Shown here: positions 6,489 through 8,477 of the stretch, piece by piece
Layout of the letters: each line of letters starts with the position of its first letter
Numbering within the stretch: the stretch's first letter is position 1
NCBI GenBank assembly: GCA_913062955.1
Contig: CAJXZP010000015.1
Coordinates: 1 to 64,000 of the forward strand
DNA: 64,000 nucleotides
DNA from: an uncultured Flavobacteriales bacterium
GTDB taxonomy: Bacteria > Bacteroidota > Bacteroidia > Flavobacteriales_G > Salibacteraceae
Direction: 5' to 3'
Notes under the pieces: model-generated
Databases searched by the model: none
Told to the model about the DNA's origin: nothing
The model's input: the letters and a program-made list of their open reading frames with translations, nothing else
Program-made: the position numbers and the translations under genes

Positions 6489-7322
6489 ATGAGTGTTAAA
6501 AAGGTAATGGTAGGTGATGTGGAATGCGGAGCCGACAAATTGTTTTTGATTTCTGGTCCTTGCGTGATCGAGTCAGAAAAAATAATGATGGATACTGCGG
6601 AGACTTTAAAGAGAGTAAGCGAAGATCTAGATATCCCTTTGATTTACAAATCGTCTTTCCAAAAAGATAACCGTAGCTCGGTAGATTATTACATGGGCCC
6701 TGGTATTGATGAAGGATTGAAAATTCTTCAACGAGTGAAAGAAGATTTTGGATTCCCGTTATTAACGGATATTCATTACCCTGATCAAGTGGAGGCGGCC
6801 GCTGAAGTAGTGGACGTATTGCAAATTCCTGCTTATTTAGTTATGCAAACTACCCTTGCGGTAGCTGCCGCTAAAACAGGGAAAGTAATTAACTTGAAAC
6901 ACGCCCAATTTTTGGCCCCTGAAAACATGTCAAAACCAGTAGCTAAGGTGGAGTCTACGGGGAATAAAAATATTTTATTGACCGAGCGTGGTTATGCTTT
7001 TGGTTACAACGACTTGGTGGTTGATCCTCGTGCTTTTCATCTGATGAGAGAAACAGGTTATCCTACTATTTTTGATGTAACTCATTCTATCCGTAAGTAT
7101 GGGATTCCAAGTTCAGATCCTTCTGGTGGTGCACGACAATACCTTGATGTATTGGGTAGAGCAGGTGTTGCCGCAGGAGTAGATGGAATATTTGTAGAAG
7201 TCCATCCTTGTCCAAGCGAAGCTTTATGTGATGCGGCATCTCAAATGGATATGACGCAATTAAAAGAATATTTGAAACCCCTAATCGAAATGCACGAACT
7301 TGAGGTGAAATACCGCAAGTAA
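6489..7322 (+). CDS. kdsA: 3-deoxy-8-phosphooctulonate synthase
   Basis: KdsA condenses phosphoenolpyruvate with arabinose-5-phosphate to form Kdo-8-phosphate, the precursor of the Kdo sugar in LPS. The 277 residues include the N-terminal ISGPCVIES motif, and KSSFQKDNRSS, which corresponds to the KANRSS substrate loop. Cys25 occupies the metal-ligand position of class II (metal-dependent) enzymes, where class I has Asn. The other expected ligands are present: DVTHS (His), FVEVHP (Glu) and CDAASQ (Asp). LTERG and FGYNDLVVD are also conserved. The gene is followed after 35 bp by the aldolase-CBS fusion, and the pair ends in a strong terminator, so they form a two-gene operon. Confidence 0.96.
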   Translation: MSVKKVMVGDVECGADKLFLISGPCVIESEKIMMDTAETLKRVSEDLDIPLIYKSSFQKDNRSSVDYYMGPGIDEGLKILQRVKEDFGFPLLTDIHYPDQVEAAAEVVDVLQIPAYLVMQTTLAVAAAKTGKVINLKHAQFLAPENMSKPVAKVESTGNKNILLTERGYAFGYNDLVVDPRAFHLMRETGYPTIFDVTHSIRKYGIPSSDPSGGARQYLDVLGRAGVAAGVDGIFVEVHPCPSEALCDAASQMDMTQLKEYLKPLIEMHELEVKYRK

Positions 7323-7357: not shown

Positions 7358-8368
7358 ATGGAATTATATTTAGATTCAGCCGATTTAGCAGAGATTAAAG
7401 AAGCTATGGAAATTGGCTTTTTAACTGGTTTAACCACAACTCCAACTTTCATGCACCGTCATGGAATTACGGATATTGATGGAACAATTGTAGAGCTTTC
7501 AAATATTGTGGATGTTCTTCAAATTGAAGCTTTAGGCGAAACGGCCGAAGAAGTAATTGCGGAAGCATACCGTCAAGAGGCTTTAGGTTTGGATCGGAAT
7601 AAAACGGTTTACAAAATTCCAATGTCTTTGGAAGGGGTAAAAGCGTGTAAAAAATTGACGGACGAAGGTTTTATGGTCAATATTCACTTGGTGTATACTT
7701 TACAACAAGCGTATATGGCTATGGAAGCAGGGGCAACTTACGTTTGTCCGTTAGTGGGTCGTTTACAAGATCAAGGTAACGATGCCGTTGCTTTAGTGGA
7801 ACAGTGTGTGAATGCCGTAGAGTATTATGGATACGATACTAAAATCATGTTTTCTTCGGTAAGAAATATTGAGCACGTTCGAAATGCAATTAACGCAGGT
7901 GCGCATACCGTAACTGTTCCTTGGAAATTGATTAAGCAATTAACGCAAAATCACTTTACTTCAATCGGTACGGATCAATTTACACAAGATACACATATCA
8001 TGACTGCTAAAGTTAAGGACGTGGTAGGGGCAAAAAACCCAAGTGTAACTATGGATGCTTCGGTAACCGACTGTTTAGTTAAAATGACCACAGGAGGTTA
8101 TGGTGCGGTTACTGTACTTGATGGTAACGGAGCTGCGGCTGGTATTTTTACCGATGGTGACTTACGTAGATTAATGGAAGCAAATGGATCGGAAGCCGTG
8201 AATAAAAAAATGAGCGATTTAGGTTTAAGCGCTCCAAAAACGATTGATGCGGAAGAATTACTATACAAAGCACAAAAAGTATTTGCAGATACTAAAGTAG
8301 ATTCTTTAGTGGTTGTTTCTCAAGGTAAAGTAGTGGGTCTTTTAGATGTACAAGATTTGATTAAATAA
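7358..8368 (+). CDS. Transaldolase/FSA-like aldolase fused to KdsD-type CBS domains
   Basis: Residues 1-210 are a transaldolase-family TIM barrel close in length and layout to fructose-6-phosphate aldolase (FSA). It has MELYLDSAD (Asp6), Schiff-base Lys86 in YKIPMS, Gln55, and YVCPLVGRLQDQG. Residues 225-336 form a CBS pair with GIFTDGDLRR at 262-271 and VVGLLDVQDL at the end, the signature seen in arabinose-5-phosphate isomerase KdsD. KdsD normally has a SIS domain in front of its CBS pair; here an aldolase takes its place. By my alignment to remembered E. coli FSA, three active-site positions differ: Asn28 is Thr28, Thr109 is His110, Tyr131 is Leu132. The gene is in an operon with kdsA. The domain calls are solid. 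A role in arabinose-5-phosphate supply is inference; a plain transaldolase is the alternative. Confidence 0.85.
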   Translation: MELYLDSADLAEIKEAMEIGFLTGLTTTPTFMHRHGITDIDGTIVELSNIVDVLQIEALGETAEEVIAEAYRQEALGLDRNKTVYKIPMSLEGVKACKKLTDEGFMVNIHLVYTLQQAYMAMEAGATYVCPLVGRLQDQGNDAVALVEQCVNAVEYYGYDTKIMFSSVRNIEHVRNAINAGAHTVTVPWKLIKQLTQNHFTSIGTDQFTQDTHIMTAKVKDVVGAKNPSVTMDASVTDCLVKMTTGGYGAVTVLDGNGAAAGIFTDGDLRRLMEANGSEAVNKKMSDLGLSAPKTIDAEELLYKAQKVFADTKVDSLVVVSQGKVVGLLDVQDLIK

Positions 8369-8389
8369 TCCATCTTCAATGATATGGAA

Positions 8390-8425
8390 AGCCGTTAATG
8401 TATTTTACATTAACGGCTTTTTTTG
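8390..8425 (+). terminator. Intrinsic terminator of the kdsA operon
   Basis: A perfect 13-bp inverted repeat (8390-8402 and 8406-8418) with a 3-nt loop is followed directly by a run of T. It lies 22 bp after the stop codon of the aldolase-CBS gene. Confidence 0.93.
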
Positions 8426-8477
8426 TGCCGCATAAAATCGGAATTGCATTAACTTGGCACCATAATTAATTATCCAA

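Follow-up and report, generated by a model that had tools for sequence, protein, structure and literature searches.

The most probable role of TAL-CBS, a protein in which a transaldolase-type barrel is fused to a pair of CBS domains, is to supply arabinose-5-phosphate (A5P) to the Kdo pathway of Bacteroidota in which KdsD was lost or never present, and we consider this assignment likely. Most Gram-negative bacteria cannot do without Kdo in their outer membrane, where A5P serves as a sugar precursor of the lipopolysaccharide, and to our knowledge the supply of A5P by KdsD has been treated as the universal first step of its synthesis. Many Bacteroidota without KdsD carry TAL-CBS, which probably makes A5P by a different chemistry. 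It falls outside every NCBIfam equivalog, and no description of the fusion was found in the open-access literature searched; its role as a replacement of KdsD appears to be undescribed, the protein family being known in outline (transaldolase, CBS).

Anatomy of the fusion gene and its operon

The window analyzed here is a stretch of 64,000 nucleotides (contig CAJXZP010000015.1) from an uncultured Flavobacteriales bacterium, and its relevant features are collected in Table 1. As originally predicted, the open reading frame encodes a barrel of the transaldolase superfamily with Lys86 and Asp6, followed by a CBS pair that carries the GIFTDGDLRR signature of KpsF-type pairs (residues 262-271). The predicted operon structure was likewise recovered, with a gap of 35 bases between kdsA and the fusion gene and a single terminator after both, formed by a perfect 15-bp inverted repeat (8388-8402/8406-8420) and a T-run. 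No terminator was detected in the interval between the two genes by a simple terminator scan, which also overlooked the hairpin at 8388-8420.

Table 1. Position of the fusion gene, its parts and its pathway neighbors in the window.
Feature	Coordinates	Strand	Description
TAL-CBS fusion ORF	7358..8368	+	336 aa, ATG start; proposed A5P-forming enzyme replacing KdsD
kdsA, fusion-associated type (KdsA')	6489..7322	+	NF003543/TIGR01362 over cut-off; remodelled substrate pocket
Transaldolase/FSA-type (beta/alpha)8 barrel	7358..7993	+	residues 1-212 of the fusion
Lys86 codon	7613..7615	+	aligned with the Schiff-base lysine
KdsD-type CBS pair, proposed CMP-Kdo sensor	8012..8362	+	residues 219-335
Intrinsic terminator common to kdsA and fusion	8388..8427	+	15-bp perfect stem, 3-nt loop, T-run
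Divergent KdsC-like HAD phosphatase (KdsC'), 209 aa	16751..17380	+	8 kb downstream of the fusion in the window

Profile searches support this composite structure. Pfam assigns residues 3-202 to TAL_FSA (PF00923, 129 bits against a cut-off of 27), with two CBS stretches after them, and the NCBIfam transaldolase/FSA families match the fusion below their cut-offs, including the FSA equivalog TIGR00875 (160 bits against 245.95). Residues 216-329 match only positions 154-267 of TIGR00393 (KpsF/KdsD; 71 bits), while positions 1-153 are unmatched: the SIS isomerase domain is absent, and Pfam gives TAL_FSA in its place. The kdsA of the window scores 327 bits against the TIGR01362 equivalog cut-off of 314. 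Chance or contamination as the origin of the fusion is ruled out by its presence at 80 loci across several orders and by the intact reading frames.

The AF2 model of the fusion comprises a confident barrel and CBS pair (pLDDT 92). The closest solved relatives of the barrel are the B. subtilis and T. maritima transaldolases, and superposition on the former (3r8r) gives a VIA-align Z of 30.1 and an rmsd of 1.4 A over 211 residues. The description of the barrel as transaldolase/FSA-like was thus right about the superfamily, but both these structures and Glu57 place it nearer to TalC-type transaldolases than to FSA.

Distribution with respect to kdsD and the Kdo genes

The genome of origin and its relatives (41 genomes) include 29 with kdsA, of which 17 carry the fusion without kdsD and 12 carry kdsD without the fusion. 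One of these 12 has a SIS-only form; such forms, like that of G026, are recognized by the same kdsD profile. Among the 12 genomes of the set lacking kdsA, kdsD was found in none and a fragment of the fusion in one (an 83%-complete genome, at a contig end). The search of the genome of origin for a SIS-CBS KdsD found none among its SIS-domain proteins, which read as GlmS and as MurQ-, GmhA- and PGI/PMI-like; a hidden kdsD or a SIS-only A5P isomerase was rejected on the same readings.

The same pattern extends across the phylum. In a phylum-wide sample of 395 genomes, the genome of origin included, the fusion occurs in six, each of which has kdsA but lacks kdsD, and kdsD occurs in 283. When the sets are merged (435 Bacteroidota genomes), the genomes with kdsA divide into 290 with kdsD, 22 with the fusion and five with neither, with no overlap: kdsD is present in 0 of 22 fusion genomes versus 290 of 295 other kdsA genomes (Fisher p 2e-29, a value that ignores phylogeny). 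Both states are found within six families (f1, f2, f14, f20, f22 and f29) and are reciprocal in every one. Genomes reached through their fusion loci behave similarly, with 39 of 41 lacking kdsD (G004 being repeated from the relatives) and kdsA present in 39 of the 40 newly reached. This survey had been set in advance as a test that could refute the idea of the fusion standing in for KdsD, and the idea came through it, with near-perfect exclusion and co-occurrence with kdsA.

The two exceptions are metagenome-assembled genomes (MAGs) with both kdsD and the fusion (G463 and G474), and each also has two kdsA genes, one a high-scoring ordinary gene and the other of the fusion type, which suggests that each type of kdsA has its own A5P source. 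A single contig of G474 (C35; L177, L227) holds kdsD together with the fusion and its type of kdsA, about 40 kb apart; the corresponding loci of G463 are L178, L226 and L228.

Five genomes contain kdsA with neither kdsD nor the fusion (G063, L223; G240, L224; G312, L225; G343; G398). Incompleteness affects some of the five, but not G063 and G240, which have a completeness rating of 100%. Given these genomes, another A5P source besides kdsD and the fusion may exist, which would suit an explanation in which the fusion is a regulator or scaffold of KdsA' and A5P comes from an unrecognized isomerase elsewhere (e.g. a moonlighting SIS or Rpi protein). We regard this as highly improbable, however, because the fusion and kdsD are exchanged one-for-one and the whole Schiff-base machinery of the barrel is invariant over 81 fusion sequences.

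At least 466 loci in one-per-species genomes encode relatives of the fusion, and the 80 that were kept come mostly from Bacteroidota, with further cases in Ignavibacteria/Melioribacteraceae and one MAG labelled Chlorobiota. The fusion is also present in two MAGs whose titles, Chryseobacterium gleum and Candidatus Saccharibacteria (L109, L157), probably reflect misassigned bins. Wherever kdsA is part of the locus, it almost always lies directly upstream of the fusion (43 of 45), and a divergent KdsC-like HAD protein is found nearby in 53 of 75 loci, usually as the gene that follows the fusion, unlike its position in the window. Other frequent neighbors besides kdsA are kdsB and an aminotransferase/dehydrogenase pair, whose members match KdnA (5k8b, 1e-135) and KdnB (5k8c, 6e-96). 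KdnA and KdnB turn Kdo into 8-amino-Kdo. Of the 80 loci, 14 from both Bacteroidota and Ignavibacteria have these two genes close to the fusion cluster (L097, L099, L112, L114, L115, L120, L123, L129, L141, L144, L145, L148, L161 and L167).

Within the relatives set, 16 of the 17 genomes with the fusion also have kdsB, and all 17 have a waaA-type glycosyltransferase. The exception is the genome of origin, where no kdsB was found at E 1e-30. Two other genomes from its genus do have the gene, and its absence here is probably an assembly gap. Open reading frames of about 236 aa upstream of fusions without kdsA were considered as kdsB and rejected, being CoA-transferase subunits; those downstream are KdsC-like. 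Taken together, the kdsA, kdsB, KdsC-like and kdnA/kdnB neighbors and the presence of waaA make Kdo very probably the end product of the fusion pathway.

Active site of the barrel and its partner KdsA'

The active sites of the fusions were aligned with those of 12 standalone Bacteroidota transaldolases, the B. subtilis transaldolase, TalB and FsaA. Asp6, Glu57, Lys86, Asn108, Arg135 and Arg169 are retained in all fusions, with Asp6 and Lys86 aligning with the catalytic Asp and Lys of transaldolases. Specific to the family are the changes TTNP to TTTP (Asn28Thr), NxT to NxH (Thr110His) and SPF to CPL (Ser130Cys, Phe132Leu), together with a further departure from transaldolases, AAS to FSS (Phe165-Ser166). 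These changes hold in 81 of 81 fusion sequences; the search patterns (LTTTPTFM, VGRLQDQG) dictate the residue at position 28 and leave positions 110, 130 and 132 free. Where transaldolases hold their donor-pocket and water set (N35, S176, T156 and F178 in TalB), the fusion presents Thr28, Cys130, His110 and Leu132.

With the TalC/MipB transaldolases (B. subtilis 3r8r, T. acidophilum 3s0c) the fusion shares its fold (Z about 30) and all six retained residues. This overall similarity, and the retention of the catalytic Lys, Asp and Glu, would be expected of an ordinary transaldolase, active in S7P/F6P metabolism or in heptose or E4P supply, that captured the CBS pair of KdsD. Unlike those enzymes, the fusion has the four substitutions, a CBS pair and a different gene neighborhood, and a separate, standalone transaldolase with about 36% identity to it is also present in 15 of 17 fusion-bearing relatives. 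An ordinary transaldolase would moreover leave the absence of kdsD from kdsA-bearing genomes unexplained. Since most fusion-bearing relatives keep a standalone transaldolase and four donor-pocket positions are invariantly changed, the classic transaldolase with a captured domain, held in reserve as an alternative by the original prediction, is barely probable. A different precedent is the F. tularensis transaldolase 3upb, described by its title as a covalent complex of transaldolase with A5P, although A5P is there bound to, and not a known product of, an ordinary transaldolase with 26% identity to the fusion over 192 residues.

The barrel also differs from E. coli FsaA (1l6w), a member of the same superfamily to which it is 25-26% identical and which forms a very long branch in our trees (supports from quick searches). 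In FSA, Asp6 and Asn28 contact the donor and Gln59, Thr109 and Tyr131 hold the catalytic water (PMC13259622); the fusion lacks these last three residues and has Glu57 in the place of Gln59. From its residues, the barrel is best regarded as distinct from both normal transaldolases and FSA, and the residue pattern would fit a donor lacking the C1-hydroxymethyl, i.e. an aldehyde or aldose Schiff base, while the arginines on the phosphate side are intact.

For the product (A5P), the reaction chemistry and the feedback ligand we infer the following scheme. The SIS isomerase domain of KdsD would in effect have been swapped for a transaldolase-type barrel, with the CBS pair retained. A Schiff-base barrel without a SIS domain implies that the chemistry cannot be the enediol isomerization of KdsD. 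Instead, Lys86 would form a Schiff base with an aldose rather than a ketose; where transaldolase and FSA grip the C1-hydroxymethyl of dihydroxyacetone, the residues are altered (Asn28 to Thr, Ser/Ala129 to Cys), and the arginines expected to bind the phosphate are retained. Because A5P equals fructose-6-phosphate minus C1, its formation would be the smallest re-specialization of the barrel fold. The product would then pass to the co-evolved KdsA' and on to KdsC', KdsB and WaaA.

Two routes to A5P can be envisaged. The first, aldol addition of glycolaldehyde to glyceraldehyde-3-phosphate, has close to an even chance of being the reaction of the fusion, and has a precedent in FsaA/B, which make A5P from these substrates with a KM of 0.2 mM and a kcat of 16/s (PMC6298115). 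No glycolaldehyde-producing enzyme was linked to the fusion locus, and we know of no glycolaldehyde source of sufficient flux. The second, C2-epimerization of ribose-5-phosphate through the same Lys86 aldimine/enamine, with His110 and Glu57 as acid/base, is a tentative but serious candidate: it would need no free glycolaldehyde, and His110, next to the Schiff base, would be well suited to relay protons. Some other chemistry is unlikely. The proposal that the fusion replaces KdsD stands, but the FSA-type glycolaldehyde aldol put forward with it is only one candidate reaction, considering Glu57, Leu132 and His110 versus Gln59, Tyr131 and Thr109 of FSA, the remodelled partner KdsA and the lack of an apparent glycolaldehyde source.

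That partner has an unusual substrate pocket. The catalytic and PEP residues of KdsA' and its NRS motif are unchanged (K55, K60, N62, R63, K138, R168, H202, E239 and D250, in E. coli numbering). KdsA proteins associated with kdsD (n = 22) have A61, F117, R120, K139, Q205, P207 and S249, residues with which one SIS-linked KdsA and the four from genomes with neither gene agree. In contrast, the fusion-associated proteins share D61, Y117, M120, R205, Y207 and C249 in 90 of 90 sequences and His139 in 89 of 90, departing from the ordinary A5P pocket (A61, F117, R120, Q205), in which F117 and R120 are presumably A5P-contacting residues of the neighboring subunit. In the tree, KdsA' sequences group as a single clade (100*, a support from a quick search) with a long stem. 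The main uncertainty of the proposal, not anticipated in the original prediction, lies here: judged from these residues, KdsA' would either bind A5P differently, with an Arg lost at 120 and gained at 205, or use a substrate that is not plain A5P, as alteration of normally conserved pocket positions may indicate.

The second option leads to a route that bypasses A5P and Kdo-8-phosphate as intermediates: the barrel would make a different aldose (phosphate), KdsA' would condense it with PEP, and the end product would be Kdo or an analogue of it. The seven altered positions, the long stem of the KdsA' clade and the scores of KdsC', far below the KdsC cut-off, all speak for it. We nonetheless judge such a route very unlikely, as the exchange of Arg between positions 120 and 205 is compatible with the same ligand bound differently, the PEP and catalytic machinery is intact and the kdnA/kdnB genes in the clusters act on Kdo. 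KdsB, once considered as a possible sign of a different end product and dropped, offers no group-specific residues (one row of the comparison was misread).

The CBS pair as a possible valve of the Kdo pathway

The TAL-CBS fusion closely parallels KdsD/GutQ/KpsF (SIS plus CBS pair) in its CBS pair, its place beside kdsA and kdsB and its phylogenetic role, and differs from them in its catalytic part, a Schiff-base aldolase barrel. Its CBS pair nests inside the KdsD CBS pairs in the tree. Among solved structures, sequence and fold both point first to 4o9k, a CBS pair from an A5P isomerase (Z 17.1 and rmsd 2.3 A over 122 residues; other CBS pairs score close), whose ligand we take to be CMP-Kdo. 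Given this grouping, feedback control as in KdsD is a reasonable expectation, and binding of CMP-Kdo to the CBS pair would probably turn the barrel down.

Six relatives lack kdsA, kdsD and the fusion altogether and keep kdsB and waaA (G010, G017, G021, G024, G037 and G039). In these genomes (L209-L214; e.g. L212:3505-6136), an N-terminal ribulose-phosphate-3-epimerase (RPE) barrel is fused to a KpsF-type CBS pair and directly precedes a type I DAHP-synthase-family protein, with a KdsC-like phosphatase next or nearby in most loci. The RPE-CBS/DAHP-synthase-like locus is apparently a third, separate version of the supply route for Kdo or a Kdo-like sugar, and its occurrence in relatives without kdsA suggests that the KdsD CBS pair is a portable valve of the Kdo pathway. 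A more far-reaching reading, which we find rather doubtful, is that TAL-CBS, KdsA' and KdsC' constitute a complete, separately evolved Kdo route, in which the barrel would be a pentose-phosphate 2-epimerase or the maker of a different aldose used by a re-tooled KdsA, and that the same CBS valve, of KdsD type, has become attached to three or more unrelated folds (SIS, transaldolase and the RPE barrel of relatives without kdsA) feeding one sugar pathway.

The assignment of TAL-CBS as the A5P source would name a missing gene in many Bacteroidota, so that a protein annotated as "transaldolase" becomes a Kdo enzyme open to testing. A new lysine-Schiff-base reaction leading to A5P is predicted, as is altered substrate binding by a KdsA, and the assignment would mean that a regulatory CBS valve can stay in place while the catalytic domain is swapped.
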